DNA of 22,051 bases from a virus: IMG/VR virus record IMGVR_UViG_3300030107_002180, positions 23,073 through 45,123 of that record; one strand, 5' to 3'. Positions 1-11,600 of the stretch are shown in pieces. The position numbers and the translations under genes were made by a program. The notes under the pieces were generated by a model. That model made no database searches, had not been told where the DNA came from, and was given only the letters and a program-made list of their open reading frames with translations. Position 1 is the first letter of the stretch. The number at the start of each line of letters is the position of its first letter.

Positions 1-161
1 GACGTATGGGGTCATGGTGTCTTGACCATTGCCATGATACTGACACTTTTAGAGGATGGTTGTGTCATAACTGTAATCGTTCTTTAGGGGGATTTAATGA
101 TAGTATTTTGACATTAGAGAGAGCAATAAAGTATTTAAAAAATCATAAGGAGAAAAAATGA
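1..161 (+). CDS. Recombination endonuclease VII-like HNH nuclease (C-terminal fragment)
   Basis: The 5' end is outside the window. The reading frame starts at base 3 and runs about 52 codons to a TGA at 159-161. The visible part has the pattern LDHCHDTDTFRG followed by LCHNCN and then LGGFND. This matches the second half of T4 endonuclease VII-type proteins: a catalytic D/H-rich DH.H..G..RG motif, the second CxxC zinc pair, and a short helix ending in ERAIKYL. Family members cut Holliday junctions and branched DNA during phage recombination and packaging. The stop overlaps the helicase start as ATGA, so the two genes are probably translationally coupled. The family assignment is good from the motif; the N-terminal zinc pair cannot be checked here. 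Confidence 0.8.
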   Translation, partial: RMGSWCLDHCHDTDTFRGWLCHNCNRSLGGFNDSILTLERAIKYLKNHKEKK

Positions 162-5815: not shown

Positions 5816-5995
5816 ATGCGATTTAAGATACTTGCAGAGGTAGATATAGATGAAGAGTCTAGTCTGATGCCTGTAACATGCGATCACGCAGATAAAGTTA
5901 AAGAAGGGGAAACAGTAGTTAAAGACATTGTTAAAGACCTTCTCTACGACATGGACGACATTGAAATTAAAAACATAAAGGTATCAAAAGTATGA
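5816..5995 (+). CDS. Small hypothetical protein (59 aa)
   Basis: This short open frame runs from an ATG one base after the DUF3310 stop to a TGA that overlaps the reductase start as ATGA (5992-5995). A ribosome-binding site, AAGGGAGA (5802-5809), lies six bases upstream. The product starts MRFKILAEVDID and ends with an acidic patch (YDMDDIEI) followed by KNIKVSKV. It has one cysteine and no transmembrane segment. I do not recognise a family. The exact fit between two real genes, with overlaps at both ends and a good ribosome-binding site, is the main support for it being translated. Confidence 0.75.
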   Translation: MRFKILAEVDIDEESSLMPVTCDHADKVKEGETVVKDIVKDLLYDMDDIEIKNIKVSKV

Positions 5996-7878
5996 ACGAC
6001 TATCAAAAATTTATAGCAATTTCTAGGTACGCTAGATGGCTACCGAAAGAAAACAGACGAGAAGCATGGGAAGAAACAGTACAAAGGTATATGGATTTCA
6101 TGTCGATTAAAGTTAAAGGACACTTGCCTATCCAACACCTTAAAGATGCCATAACTAACTTAGAAGTTATGCCTTCTATGAGAGCACTAATGACAGCAGG
6201 GTTAGCTCTTGAGAGAGACAACACAGCAGGATACAACTGTAGTTATTTGCCTGTTGATGACCCTAAGTCTTTTGATGAAGCCATGTATATATTATTGTGT
6301 GGCACAGGAGTAGGCTTTTCTGTTGAGAGACACTATGTAAGCCAACTTCCTGACATTCCTGAAAAGATTGAGGACTGTAACACTATAATAGAGGTTGACG
6401 ACAGTAAAGAAGGTTGGGCAAAAGCCTTTCGTAGGCTCATAGGACACCTTTACATGGGAGAAATACCTGAGTGGGACGACTCCAAGATTAGACCTGCAGG
6501 GTCACGACTACAGATATTTGGGGGAAGGGCTAGTGGTCCAGAGCCGTTAAGAAACTTATACAATTTTACTATTAACTTATTTAAGCTTAACGCAGGACGT
6601 AAACTGTCAAGCTACGATTGTCATAATCTTATGTGTAAAGTTGGAGAAGTTGTTGTGTCAGGTGGTGTTAGACGTTCAGCTATGATTAGTTTGTCTAATC
6701 TTTCTGATGGACGTATGAGACACGCAAAGTCAGGTAAGTGGTGGGAGAGTTCTCCTCAAATGGCTCTTGCTAATAACTCTGTGTGCTATACGGATAAGCC
6801 TGATGGAGAGACGTTTCTTAGAGAGTGGCTTTCTTTGGTTGAGTCTAAGTCAGGAGAACGAGGTATATTCAACAGAGTATCAGCAAAGGTACAGGCAAGT
6901 AAGTACGGCAGAAGAAACCCTGACTACGACTTTGGTACTAACCCTTGTAGTGAAATTATTCTTAGACCTTATCAGTTCTGTAACCTTACTGAGGTTGTTG
7001 TACGAGAGAAAGATAGATTTGACGACTTAAAGAGAAAGGTTATGTTGGCAACTATTCTTGGTACAGCACAATCTACGCTTACTAAATTTCCTTATCTTAG
7101 AAAAGTGTGGAAAAACAACACAGAGGAAGAAAGACTTCTTGGTGTTAGTCTTACAGGTATAATGGATAATGAACTAACAAGTGGTAAAAAGAAAGGTCTT
7201 GAGAGCACTCTTGAAAAACTTAGGGAGATAGCTGTTGAAACAAACAAAGAATGGGCACAAATCTTCGGAATCCCACAAAGTACAGCGATTACTTGTGTCA
7301 AACCAAGTGGGACAGTATCACAACTTGTTGACTCAGGCAGTGGTATACACCCTCGTCACAGTGCTTACTATATTAGGACTGTGCGTGGTGACAATAAAGA
7401 TCCTCTCACTCAGTTCCTAAAAGACAGTGGTGTTCCTGCTGAACCTGACTTTATGAAGCCTGATACACAGACAGTATTTAGCTTTCCTATGAAGTCACCA
7501 AAAGCTTCCGTATTAAGAAAAGACATGTCAGCTATTGAACAACTAGAGACATGGCTTATCTATCAGAGGCATTGGTGTGAACACAAGCCTTCAGTAACTG
7601 TGTCTGTACGAGATGACGAATGGATGGACGTAGGTGCTTTTGTGTTTAAGCACTTTGATGAGATGTCAGGGGTATCGTTTCTACCCTACTCTGAACATAC
7701 TTATCAACAAGCCCCCTATCAAGAGTGTACAGAAGACGTATACAATGATTTTAGCAGTAAATTCGGACATATTGATTGGGAAAAATTTAGAAATTATGAA
7801 GAAGAAGATACTACAAATTCATCACAAACATTTGCGTGTTCAGGCGACTCGTGTGAACTTGTAGATATAGGGAGTTAA
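5992..7878 (+). CDS. nrdJ: Adenosylcobalamin-dependent class II ribonucleotide reductase (monomeric type)
   Basis: The protein has 628 residues, somewhat shorter than the Lactobacillus leichmannii enzyme (about 739). Key residues can be placed by motif and spacing: C83 in YNCSYLP (its C119), N317-C319-E321 in NPCSE (thiyl-radical C408 with N406 and E410), and C330 in FCNL (C419). The 11-residue gap between the last two cysteines is the same. The C-terminal pair C616/C621 (CSGDSC) matches the C731/C736 reducing pair. VKPSGT at 436-441 is a conserved phosphate-binding loop. It reduces ribonucleoside triphosphates to dNTPs using vitamin B12 coenzyme, supplying phage DNA synthesis. No radical-generating subunit is needed and none is present. 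It is coupled to the preceding small gene by ATGA. Confidence 0.93.
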   Translation: MNDYQKFIAISRYARWLPKENRREAWEETVQRYMDFMSIKVKGHLPIQHLKDAITNLEVMPSMRALMTAGLALERDNTAGYNCSYLPVDDPKSFDEAMYILLCGTGVGFSVERHYVSQLPDIPEKIEDCNTIIEVDDSKEGWAKAFRRLIGHLYMGEIPEWDDSKIRPAGSRLQIFGGRASGPEPLRNLYNFTINLFKLNAGRKLSSYDCHNLMCKVGEVVVSGGVRRSAMISLSNLSDGRMRHAKSGKWWESSPQMALANNSVCYTDKPDGETFLREWLSLVESKSGERGIFNRVSAKVQASKYGRRNPDYDFGTNPCSEIILRPYQFCNLTEVVVREKDRFDDLKRKVMLATILGTAQSTLTKFPYLRKVWKNNTEEERLLGVSLTGIMDNELTSGKKKGLESTLEKLREIAVETNKEWAQIFGIPQSTAITCVKPSGTVSQLVDSGSGIHPRHSAYYIRTVRGDNKDPLTQFLKDSGVPAEPDFMKPDTQTVFSFPMKSPKASVLRKDMSAIEQLETWLIYQRHWCEHKPSVTVSVRDDEWMDVGAFVFKHFDEMSGVSFLPYSEHTYQQAPYQECTEDVYNDFSSKFGHIDWEKFRNYEEEDTTNSSQTFACSGDSCELVDIGS

Positions 7879-7882
7879 AATT

Positions 7883-8119
7883 ATGGAAGTATTTATTATA
7901 TATGCCGCCCTTTCTATTGGGAATCTAACCACCTTTTTTGAGTTTAAAGGTATGAATTTTGTAGACATGCAAGAGTGTAATAGCTTTTATAAGGAGTATA
8001 AAGAACCAATAGAGTTAAGTTTACAAGAACATATAAATGAAACGCATCCTGAGTATACAGTTTCATACATAGGGTGTAGCACAAGGAGTAAGTTTATTGC
8101 AAAAAGCACAGACATCTAA
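7883..8119 (+). CDS. Small hypothetical protein with hydrophobic N-terminus (78 aa)
   Basis: The ATG lies four bases after the reductase stop and is preceded by AGGGAG (7869-7874). Residues 3-14 (VFIIYAALSIGN) are hydrophobic, which could be a short membrane anchor or a poor signal peptide. Two cysteines follow, in MQECNSF and YIGCSTR, and could form a disulfide if the chain is exported. I do not recognise the family. It overlaps the next gene by 23 bases. Its position immediately behind the reductase suggests co-transcription but says little about its job. Confidence 0.7.
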   Translation: MEVFIIYAALSIGNLTTFFEFKGMNFVDMQECNSFYKEYKEPIELSLQEHINETHPEYTVSYIGCSTRSKFIAKSTDI

Positions 8120-8354
8120 ACAAAAATATGTCAAGCCTTTTGACAGAGGGTTCAGGGTCTTTGAGAAGGGTAAAATAATGTATCCCTCAAAGATGTTGAA
8201 GGGTAATCCCTTTCACCCACATACCACAGCGTATAAAGAATGGGAACGTGGCTTCAATGTCGCATATTATCGAAACTTGGAGAGGTTGGATGAACAAAGC
8301 GAGGAAAGAAGCAGAGAAAGCTTTCAAAAAATCGGAGGGAAAGATGGAAAGTGA
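8097..8354 (+). CDS. Ribosome modulation factor (RMF)/CrpP-like small protein
   Basis: The protein has 85 residues from a TTG start, chosen because AAGGAG (8083-8088) lies eight bases upstream; an in-frame ATG at 8178 would cut off part of the conserved region. The sequence FDRGFRVFEKGK, then GNPF, then EWERGFNVAYY follows the pattern of E. coli RMF (RGYQAG, then CPY, then WLGGWREA). RMF binds the 30S subunit and drives 70S ribosomes into inactive dimers. If real, a phage copy could affect host translation late in infection. The match is to a short, loose pattern, so this is a moderate inference. It overlaps the genes on both sides. The C-terminal third is charged and has no match. Confidence 0.7.
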   Translation: MQKAQTSKQKYVKPFDRGFRVFEKGKIMYPSKMLKGNPFHPHTTAYKEWERGFNVAYYRNLERLDEQSEERSRESFQKIGGKDGK

Positions 8355-8583
8355 AATTACTCTTGAAGACATGGCGAAGCAAATCAAAGAGTTGGATTCT
8401 CAACTAGCTGATATGAAGAAGGAATATCGTGAAAGGAAATTGTTGGGTTTACGCTCTGCAATGGATGCACGTAAGTCTGCTGAAGAAGCTGTTCGAGAGG
8501 AACTCAAGGCTCTAGGGGTAGCTCATCGTGGCTACGCTTGGTCAAGTGCTGATCCATTTAACCTGTACACTAAATGGTACTAG
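8344..8583 (+). CDS. Small coiled-coil hypothetical protein
   Basis: From the ATG at 8344 the product has 79 residues. GGAGG at 8334-8338 supports this start. In-frame starts at 8290 (ATG with GGAGAGG just upstream, 97 residues) and 8248 (GTG) would overlap the RMF-like gene further. Residues about 5-55 are rich in Glu, Lys and Leu and look like a continuous helix or coiled coil (EDMAKQIKELDSQLADMKKE). The tail is different: HRGYAWSSADPF, then NLYTKWY. I do not recognise it. It is the last gene of the rightward operon, 11 bases before a terminator hairpin. Confidence 0.7.
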   Translation: MESEITLEDMAKQIKELDSQLADMKKEYRERKLLGLRSAMDARKSAEEAVREELKALGVAHRGYAWSSADPFNLYTKWY

Positions 8584-8622: not shown

Positions 8623-11600
8623 TTATTTCCTTGTAAAACGTATATATTTAATTGCGTCTTCTAGCCTACTTACCTCTTCGTTTGTTAAGTCTCTTATATC
8701 TACGCCTTTAATCTTTGTAATCTCTCTTGCTCGTTTAAGAATAGATTTATCTACCCCTGTTATCTTTTTCTTTCTATAGTTTAATCCTTCATTTGAGTCA
8801 GGGGTTGCAGTTAAGTATTTATTAACTCTTGCTTTTACCTTTCTCAACATATCATTGACTTTGTTCTTTTTAGTATCTCCATCTCCTTTAATAAAAGATT
8901 CATCCTTTAATAATAGTTCTGATTCTCTTTCTATTAGAGGAGCTAAAACTTTATTGGCAAAGTTATCATACTCAGGGATTCTTGAGTACATACCTGTTTT
9001 CCACTCAGGCTTATCAACCATATTAAACACAATGTTGGCAAATGTACGAGGTTGTTTTATCTTTTGCCCTGTCAGAGTCCTGTAGGGGCTAGGATCTTTT
9101 AAATCTCCCTCACGATAAGCAACTTTTGCTTTATCTCCAAGTAACGTAGTCTCTTGGTTGACTATGCTCATTATCCCTTCAATAATGTTATCCACATACT
9201 TTGTAGAATTTACTGCTAACTTCTCCCCAAACCCTTTAGCCTGTCGCCTGTCTATGGTAGGAGTAACATCATACGGAGAAAGCTCCCCAAAAGCATATCC
9301 TGCTACTTTGTTAAACGTATCAAGAGGTCTAGTAGCACCTGAAATTACGTTTCCCCCTACATGCCCTAAACCTTCTAATATTTTAGGTAAAGGACCTCTA
9401 AAGTCTTCGTCTTGATTTGCCCATAAAGATATTAAAGCTGTAATGTCATTTCCAAACTCCAAGTCTGTTGCAGCCTGACCTATTGCTAATTGCTTACTAA
9501 ATTCTGCCACTAAATCTCTTTCAACAGTTTCGCCTTTACGTCTTCTCATTTCTACCCTTCCTGTAATCATAAGTAGTGAAAGAGGAAAAACATTGGTTAT
9601 GTCAGTGACTTCTCCTGTGCCAGTGTCTAGTTCATTCCAAGAATACCCTTTCTCCTGATGTTGATCTTGAAAATCAATAGCATACTTAATAGCTGCATAA
9701 CCTACTAATGCCTTTGAAAAAGCTTCAGCAGTGTCTATACTTCTACCTTTACCCCTTAGTTGTCTCATAAGTGCCACAGCACCTTCCATTCCTCCTGTAA
9801 TAGGATTCCATTGATAAGCTGTAGCAGCTACGTTGTTCATAAATCTACCAAAAGGAAGCACAAAACCTATTCCTGGAGCGTTAGAGGCTGTCTCAACAAC
9901 CTTACCTAGAGGTCCTGCAAATCCGAATAAGGCTTTACTCTGTGTGTAATCCTCTGCAAACACTGATTTAAGTGTGTCACTCATAGCTCTGTCCATGACT
10001 TCTTGGTCTATATCTATTAGTGAGCCACTTTCTAACGTATCTTTAAAAGTTTTGCCTTTTAGTAGTCTTAGATATTTGTCTAAACTTGTCATAAACATCT
10101 GACTTTTAGTCAAACTGTCTTGTAAGTTTACAGCCGAAATTGTTTGAGCCTTGTTTGTAACCCACTCTCCTGTTCGAGCAACCTTAGACCTTTCAGCAAA
10201 ACCATAGCGTTTAGAAGCTCTTTCTACACCTCCTGATATAGTTTCTTTCAAGAACCTACTTAGCTCATCATCTGTTCTAAGCATAGCTTCATAACTATCT
10301 AATGTACTGTAAGGGTCTAACAGGTTCTTCATCTTTGTGCCTTGTAGATGAAACAAGGCTCTAGCCTTCTTAAAATCACCAAAGGCAGCATAAGCTGCCC
10401 CTTGAAAGACTTCGGCTACAGTATTTGCTAAATAATATTGTCCCCACCCAAAGACGTTAGCGGCAGTTGTTTGAGGGGCAGACACAAGTAACCTTTTCCA
10501 TATGTTCTGTGCGTACTGTAGTTTACCAGATTGAGCTAGTGCCTTACGCCCAAACCTACCCTTGTAATCCTTCTTTGCAAATTCTTCTTCAGGGTCAAGT
10601 TTTCTAGCTGTCCCTGTAAGAGAAGAGCCTTCTAAAAACTTTTCTGTTGCCCCCACCAACGCTATGTCTAACTCATTTTGTCCTCGTCTAAATACACCTA
10701 AGTTTTTTCCTACGTTAGATGCAGTAAAAGCAACCCTGTGACCTAACTGTGTTGCAAAATTATTAACGTCTAACGCATCCCCTAGATAAATGCCAAATTT
10801 ATCCTTTGTTAGAGCAGACATTTCTTTTAATGTCTCAGGGGTTAGGTATTGAAAGGCTCTTGCATACTTTTGTGCATTGTTCATATTAGGCTTAAACTTA
10901 GCTCCTGCCTCTTCAGCCATAGACACTATGTCATCACCAAAAGGGCTGTCATCTGCTTTACCAAAGATAAAGTTTAATACGTCTGCACCTAGTATATAAT
11001 CTGGCTCTTTCCTACTAGCCTCTTCTCCAAGAGCCACTAAAGTAGGAAAACCTCTATAGTCAACGCCTGGTTTCATTCTTCTATGACGAGCCTGATCGTC
11101 TGTTAATTCTATACCTCCCCTAACAAGTCTTCGGTGCTGTGTTTTTAATTTTGCTGCTTGAACCCTAAGGGATTGAAGTTCTGCTTTCTTTTTAGGGGTT
11201 AAGGTTTTAACTTTTTTAGCTCTCCCTTTTTGTGTAGACCAAGGTTCTTCTAAGTTTCTGATTTGTCTAAGAATAGGTTTTAATTCTTTATCTACTTCTT
11301 TTAGCTTCTCTGCATTGTCGGCTTTAAGCTTTTTATACTTTTCGTCAATAGCTTCTTTGTACTTTTCTGTAGACTTAAATTTAGAAGTATCTTTTATAGC
11401 TAGACGTTTAGCTTTATCTTTTAACCTACGAATGTATTTTTTATTTAGCTTTTCTAAGGCTTCAACACTCTTTATCTCTGACCTTTTAACATTATTAGCT
11501 TTAATAATCTTTTGCGAAACGTCTGAAGATAGCCCTCGTTCTGCTGCTCCTGTCAAGTTAGGCACAGCCCATATAGACAACCCTGTACCTACTCCTGCAC

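Follow-up and report, generated by a model that had tools for sequence, protein, structure and literature searches.

The locus and its source phage

The stretch of DNA that we analyzed (hereafter, the window) comprises 22,051 bases of a 45,123-base viral record that, judging from its sequence, is an HMO-2011-type marine podophage. The family-A DNA polymerase of the window is closest to those of HMO-2011 and its relatives, with 62% identity over 100% of its length to the Roseobacter phages CRP-2 and CRP-603 and 58% to HMO-2011. Like the polymerases described from HMO-2011 and the RCA phages, it contains a DnaJ-like zinc-motif insert, with CXXCXGXG at 2263-2286 and another CXXC motif, less strict, at 2338-2364. 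Cultured relatives infect Rhodobacteraceae, Puniceispirillum, and Pelagibacter. Downstream of the polymerase lie genes for endonuclease I, a DUF3310 protein, and a class II ribonucleotide reductase (RNR), and just over 200 nt past the RNR stop begins the small gene studied here, which encodes a relative of ribosome modulation factor (RMF; Table 1). A tRNA scan found none.

Table 1. Features of the RMF-like gene and its neighbors (positions are those of the window)
Feature	Position	Strand	Basis or remark
Class II (B12-dependent) RNR, upstream neighbor	5992-7878	+	phrog_367, E 1.5e-176; Pfam RNR matches
Small ORF of 78 aa that overlaps the RMF-like gene at its start	7883-8119	+	ORF list
Shine-Dalgarno sequence AAGGAG of the RMF-like gene	8083-8088	+	8 nt ahead of the TTG start
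RMF-like gene, 85 aa, TTG start, TGA stop at 8352-8354	8097-8354	+	Sequence and family profile
RMF-like core, residues G18-A56 (G..F..G ... NPF ... EWERGF..A)	8148-8264	+	Invariant or near-invariant columns in 41 members; hhalign probability 93
Lengthened interhelix linker, residues 26-36	8172-8204	+	Alignment and frames; middling confidence in the window model
C-terminal extension, residues 62-85	8280-8351	+	Alignment; pLDDT about 50-60
Small downstream ORF, likely ATG at 8344, overlapping the stop of the RMF-like gene	8344-8583	+	Lys/Glu-rich; last ORF of the strand's run

The open reading frame is a real gene by three kinds of evidence: its Shine-Dalgarno sequence, purifying selection, and homologs in phages and viral contigs. 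The predicted duplex with the anti-Shine-Dalgarno sequence has an energy of -8.0 kcal/mol, against a mean of -1.8 for the window background. In comparisons of the window with close relatives, pS exceeded pN in all 17, and over 153 pairs summed pN divided by summed pS came to 0.44, which indicates purifying selection. The stop-to-stop frame matches the family profile at 1.2e-24 (the window itself being a row of that profile), and it is the sole match over the 45,123-base record.

For the 78-aa ORF upstream, convincing relatives were not found in phage records (best tblastn E 6). The ORF downstream has a GGAGG ahead of its likely ATG, and its longer frame (8248-8583) gave weak Pfam and PHROG matches only. 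This ORF lies between the RMF-like gene and a large convergent gene on the opposite strand, which ends at 8623. The RMF-like gene is thus the penultimate one of the rightward run, and not at the end of an early operon, where an earlier note made from the sequence had placed it.

The motifs that the same note had singled out are present, at residues 17-25 (RGF..F..G), 37-39 (NPF), and 48-56 (EWERGF..A), and they recur family-wide rather than by chance: G18, F22, E48, W49, R51, and G52 are invariant in the 41 aligned members. Two parts of the protein are more local. The linker is about 8 residues longer than in short homologs, a feature common to the close relatives of the window protein; HMO-2011 also has a long linker stretch, of different sequence. 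The C-terminal extension is found in the close relatives and is missing or dissimilar in the other members shown.

A gene family of marine phages beside ribonucleotide reductase

Searched by tblastn with an E limit of 10, the window protein matched 7 of 50,697 phage records, namely five Roseobacter phages and HMO-2011 twice, of which only CRP-1 and CRP-345 were significant (5e-4 and 6e-4; the others ranged from 0.09 to 7). A family profile recovers the ORF in six isolates at 6.8e-21 or better, these isolates being rows of the profile. In viral_contigs, a pattern scan with the single window protein gave 63 relatives and the family alignment gave 397 of 490 pattern matches, the best 80 of which were retrieved; in all, hundreds of viral contigs carry homologs. 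The family signature found six stretches in genome_contigs, with no relative among them. Our main alignment (A1) consists of the window and 40 of the 49 distinct stop-to-stop frames from 69 loci, 41 members in total; the frames left out were near-duplicates (L006, L007, L028, L035, L041, L043, L058), one truncated (L016), and one running on (L055). Two further alignments, A2 and A3, hold rows from the window and viral_contigs only.

The family sits in a recurrent setting. Of 96 viral loci, 77 have an RNR of at least 50% identity, matched into its C-terminal part, no more than 1,500 nt upstream of the RMF-like ORF; in 10 the RNR matches are weaker or partial, and in 9 there are none. The family profile finds the ORF in all 96, but the loci were collected by that profile, so the neighborhood alone is informative.

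Among 11 cultured HMO-2011-type isolates, defined by a polymerase identity of at least 35%, six have the gene (HMO-2011, CRP-1, CRP-3, CRP-212, CRP-235, and CRP-345), as does the phage genome ctYwJ313. It was not found in CRP-2, CRP-207, CRP-603, CRP-738, or HTVC033P by a profile scan of the 9.8-10.5 kb after the polymerase. In CRP-2, CRP-603, and CRP-207 (L240, L241, and L242), glutaredoxin and phosphate-starvation (PhoH-type) genes fill the slot after the RNR. Since only six of the 11 isolates have the RMF-like gene, and those three phages hold other genes in its place, we regard it as accessory; the slot itself, compared between those phages and the carriers, resembles an exchange spot for accessory genes.

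The ORF is unannotated in CRP-3, CRP-235, and CRP-212 (L066:3498-3680, L068:2468-2653, and L069:2477-2668), likely a case of missed genes, and is therefore easily overlooked. As a separate observation, in one viral contig (L055:3887-4522; a stop-to-stop frame of 212 aa) the ORF continues in frame into what by eye looks like an HNH or endonuclease VII-type domain, while its near relatives (L057-L063) end before that domain. A tail similar to this one opens the window (3-161).

Relation to ribosome modulation factor

The relation to RMF emerges at the level of the family. By itself, the window protein had no RMF match in Pfam or NCBIfam and did not align with E. coli RMF by BLASTP. Its own best matches, P63C in Pfam (E 0.11) and phrog_10676 in PHROGs (E 0.13), with none in NCBIfam, were set aside. 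Across the family, PF04957 (RMF) is the most frequent Pfam model, matched by 22 of 41 members with a best E of 3.7e-4. A PF04957 search had been proposed as one check on the resemblance, and it thus came out positive for the family and negative for the window protein; PF04957 likewise had 0 matches in the window's own 45,123-base record. The second Pfam model was P63C (13 of 41 members, best E 0.003), which we place under RMF because RMF matches more members with better E-values and the fold search agrees. The Rmf/CrpP model NF041886 matched 5 of 41 members (best E 0.034), and phrog_26347, which has no assigned function, matched 28 of 41 (best E 0.0033).

The same searches separate the family from canonical RMF. 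Of six members scored against PF04957, five reached 13.1 to 19.5 bits and one (L042) had no match at E <= 1, all below the Pfam cut-off of 27.9 bits; on the NCBIfam side, NF011162 was matched by one of 41 members (E 0.035).

We compared profiles using two cellular sets gathered independently of the phage family, 63 canonical gammaproteobacterial RMFs and 15 distant, non-canonical proteins found by PF04957. The latter come from 20 fetched regions, of which L225, L228, L229, L233, and L236 were omitted for lack of the PY motif or of a clear printed ORF. With hhalign, alignment A1 matched the distant set at a probability of 93 (E 3.5e-7), both sets combined at 92, and canonical RMF alone at 7.4; the top-scoring of 60 column shuffles reached 0.69, 1.84, and 2.78, respectively. 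Alignment A2 gave 86, 82, and 0.4 in the same order, and the family profile against the single E. coli RMF sequence gave 0.2.

HMM scores follow the same division. An HMM of the combined sets gave 8 bits or more to 30 of the 41 phage members and to one of the 1,025 shuffled decoys (859 listed), whereas with a canonical-only HMM these counts were 1 of 41 and 1 of 1,025; the window protein itself scored only 4 bits with the combined HMM. In the reverse direction, an HMM of the phage family scored 3 of the 15 distant proteins above 15 bits, with canonical RMFs (here a set of 66 sequences, including 3 wrong-strand fragments) at 11.8 or less and the best decoy at 9.1. Membership of the window protein's family in the broad RMF/CrpP superfamily is thus well supported, with the profile match lying in the family and not in the window sequence alone, and by sequence the family is distinct from canonical gammaproteobacterial RMF.

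Other searches contributed less. The matches listed for the family profile against PDB sequences were FRB chains of mTOR and a single related kinase entry, at E about 0.7-0.8; we take them as chance, and no RMF chain was among them. E. coli RMF searched against phages gave 15 records with a best E of 1 and was not used; against plasmids it gave 14 records, with RMF at 67-100% identity.

RMF-like proteins have already been annotated in phages. Agrobacterium phage Milano gp060 passes the Pfam cut-off at 35.6 bits, Klebsiella phage K9PH25C2 has a protein at 19.0 bits, under the cut-off, and the record of Delftia phage IME-DE1 names an RMF, which we liken by name alone. The Milano and K9PH25C2 proteins are short RMF-domain proteins that differ from the present family in phage taxon, in gene neighborhood, and in the absence of the KEWERGFN signature. 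We also observed the core pattern in short, unannotated or hypothetical proteins of Pseudomonas phage Ep020 (L105:2001-2132; 25.6 bits, just below the Pfam cut-off), a Rhizobium phage (L106:1956-2168), and a Yersinia phage (L107:1971-2165; no Pfam match at E <= 1). What appears to be new, as far as our searches reach, is a distinct and widespread marine phage subfamily that lies below curated cut-offs where seen and has a consistent change at the dimerization residue.

Predicted fold

The model of the window protein (pLDDT 71; helices at 14-19, 32-35, and 44-79) is weak, and a fold search of the PDB with it did not list RMF (6xwx at E 4.9), nor did a second fold search (8rok_B, Z 3.3). Its 30 matches in BFVD were small, with E-values of 0.6-9.6; the RMF-named Delftia phage protein stood at rank 23 (E 6.8), too weak to use alone.

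L049, a short homolog of 59 aa that lacks the long linker, was modeled by AF2 with higher confidence (pLDDT 89.4; helices at 9-22 and 34-58), and its model has the two helices and linker of RMF. In a Foldseek search of 350,542 PDB chains, the first three ranks were all RMF: 2jrm (probability 0.97), 9iot_y (0.95), and 6h4n_v (0.75), with a fall to 0.18 at rank 4. Over 52-56 aligned columns, the TM-scores by query length were 0.64-0.68 (0.68 for 2jrm). The E-values were weak, from 0.45 to 2.1. Weak Foldseek E-values are common for proteins of so few residues. VIA-align Z-scores for the same three chains were 7.1, 6.6, and 6.2, with the next at 5.1, which is modest support when taken alone. The predicted fold therefore draws its support from the ranking and coverage of the RMF matches and from their accord with the sequence data.

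The earlier note had compared the gene product to RMF and had named the joint lack of a profile match and of a two-helix fold as grounds for giving the comparison up. The family shows neither lack, its profiles and the short homolog's model both leading to RMF; for the window protein alone, the profile match is absent, and the model, which does not retrieve RMF, is too weak to weigh against the fold.

Residues shared with RMF and residues replaced

Mutational data on E. coli RMF allow the alignment to be read in functional terms. According to PMC8126665, alanine at G16, C29, W40, or W44 abolishes ribosome binding, whereas alanine at R3, K5, R11, G23, P30, G43, or R45 spares binding and nearly eliminates dimers. 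Of these, G23 and R45 are the two that the authors emphasize for dimerization, and R45 touches C1536 of the anti-Shine-Dalgarno sequence, as cited there.

The scaffold positions are kept in the phage family: of the 41 members, 41 retain the equivalent of G16, 38 of G23, 39 of P30, 41 of W40, and 41 of G43. Other positions are replaced. C29 becomes Asn in 37 members, Ser in 3, and Cys in 1; W44 becomes Phe in 40 and Tyr in 1; and R45 becomes Asn in 37, Thr in 2, and Asp in 2, with Arg in 0 of 41. At the G42 position, the family has an invariant Arg. The canonical combination of C29 and W44 for binding and R45 for dimerization and anti-Shine-Dalgarno contact is thus absent. The window protein follows the majority, with Asn, Phe, and Asn for Cys29, Trp44, and Arg45 on a retained glycine/tryptophan scaffold. 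The family alignment shows no clear counterpart of the basic residues near the N-terminus of RMF (R3, K5, R11).

Compared with E. coli RMF (PF04957; 6h4n_v) and Vibrio RMF (2jrm), the likeness lies in the two helices with linker, the short, basic protein, and the motifs G..(A/F)..G, (C/N)P(Y/F), and W..G(W/F). Unlike E. coli RMF, the phage family lacks the KRQKRD start and is phage-borne beside an RNR, and the window protein has a longer linker and a C-terminal tail. The nearest cellular profile match is to the non-canonical bacterial RMF-like proteins (PF04957; cf. NF041886). In these, PY is preceded by C (8 of 15) or by N, Q, or S, the W44 position is W, Y, or F, and the R45 position is mostly acidic (D in 9, E in 2, R in 1 of 15). 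As the Arg is mostly lost there too, the residue pattern places the phage family with this broad non-canonical branch. What the phage family adds, unlike that set, is KE-W-ER-GFN.AY and a basic character: net charge is +8 for the window protein and for the family median, +6 for the gammaproteobacterial RMF median, and -3 for the distant cellular median. The polar residues K47, E48, E50, R51, and N54 are invariant or near-invariant, specific to the phage family, and absent from canonical RMF.

Host type and Shine-Dalgarno context

We surveyed 190 genomes of one bacterial class, the class of genome G152, together with 14 named controls. The long-HPF C-domain was above cut-off in 127 of the 190 genomes, and also in the control Caulobacter. 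PF04957 was above cut-off in 2 of the 190 and reached E <= 0.01 in 15. In the controls, it reached E <= 0.01 in E. coli only; at E <= 10 it matched 6 of 14, including Caulobacter, and was above cut-off in 1. The census suggests the type of host rather than the window's own host, which it does not identify, and on this basis the likely hosts would have a long HPF and no clear RMF. Separately, G152 itself held five PF04957-like matches (L223, L228, L231), which suggests expanded RMF-like families in some proteobacteria.

At the late starts of the phage, the mean Shine-Dalgarno energy is -5.0, against a background of -1.8; these figures come from 11 early and 15 late starts picked by eye, some of them perhaps false. 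With Shine-Dalgarno sequences at its own late starts, the phage would itself be hurt if the anti-Shine-Dalgarno were blocked in general.

Discussion

We give a probability of about one half to the reading that this phage protein of the RMF/CrpP superfamily binds the 30S subunit of the host and modulates initiation or protects ribosomes, probably without forming 100S particles. The superfamily relationship is well supported; the function is what we infer from it. At the family level, the predicted structure is a pair of helices with a linker between them, in which conserved glycines and aromatic residues would make up the packing. On the 30S subunit, its site would be near the anti-Shine-Dalgarno and the 16S rRNA 3' end; PMC8778775 places RMF near that end. 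Once bound, it may tune translation initiation or shield ribosomes during infection. Unlike E. coli RMF, it probably would not promote 100S dimers: R45, which is tied to dimerization, is replaced, and the likely hosts are of a type with long HPF and no clear RMF. The earlier note had proposed that the protein could park or reshape host ribosomes: the first, in the 100S sense, is weakened by the unmatched canonical RMF profile and by the loss of R45 (mostly to Asn), and reshaping is the reading we prefer.

A more specific version of this reading is tentative, and we would not expect it to hold in full: the family may be a distinct viral RMF subfamily, spread across a large group of marine phages, that keeps the scaffold, has Asn in place of the dimerization Arg, carries an invariant Arg three residues earlier, and docks near the anti-Shine-Dalgarno of hosts without a clear RMF, retuning initiation toward phage messages rather than making 100S.

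Another account, which we consider somewhat unlikely, is that the RMF/CrpP scaffold has been reused for a non-ribosomal task, such as binding other nucleic acids or blocking a host or rival-phage protein. The phage-specific polar residues noted above, the several RMF-like copies in some genomes (five in G152), unlike a single hibernation gene, and the accessory distribution of the gene are all consistent with it. Our searches found no convincing alternative domain, active site, or partner, P63C being the nearest, and the strong positive charge suits RNA or ribosome binding. A CrpP-like function was dropped, as the evidence points neither way and the open literature searched pairs no CrpP with ribosome modulation factor.

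Classical hibernation, in which the protein together with host HPF would dimerize 70S ribosomes into inactive 100S particles and so turn host translation off or store ribosomes, is improbable. It would fit the superfamily and predicted fold in common with RMF and the retention of G23, which PMC8126665 ties to dimerization along with R45, in nearly all members, with the dimer-needed P30 and G43 mostly kept. The R45 position, on the other hand, is N, T, or D in every one of the 41 members, and E. coli RMF partners a short HPF, whereas the likely host type has a long HPF, which is reported to dimerize ribosomes without RMF.

Least probable is a protective competitor that occupies the RMF site against host silencing factors or nucleases and keeps slow-growing marine hosts productive: the loss of R45 on a retained scaffold would suit it, and other proteins of the 30S subunit are known from phages, for example bS21 from pelagiphage HTVC008M, with bS21 carriers almost solely from aquatic samples and largely lytic (PMC6375957), but the likely host type seems to have no RMF to compete against.

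Returning to the putative 30S binder, it would join a set of ribosome-directed factors carried by phages. According to PMC6375957, these include bS21, bL12, bL9, and HPF, with bS21 acting in the step of mRNA-16S pairing and with bS21 and HPF confined, among cultured phages, to genomes above 130 kb; the term "modulation factor" has 0 occurrences in that paper. All belong to protein families different from the one described here. Phage TayeBlu reportedly carries a homolog of another, recently described hibernation family. Our search of the open-access literature did not find HMO-2011 together with ribosome modulation factor, a search for RMF in bacteriophage genomes gave none, and among the papers listed by broader searches none was on target by title.

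To our knowledge, the means by which lytic phages gain control of translation in slow-growing marine alphaproteobacteria are poorly known. Cultured carriers and apparent non-carriers of the gene share hosts: on FZCC0023, CRP-1 has it and none was found in CRP-2, and on FZCC0040, CRP-3, CRP-212, and CRP-235 have it and none was found in CRP-207. The idea is therefore directly testable, and a phage relative of RMF with a replaced dimerization residue could separate binding the 30S subunit from making 100S particles.
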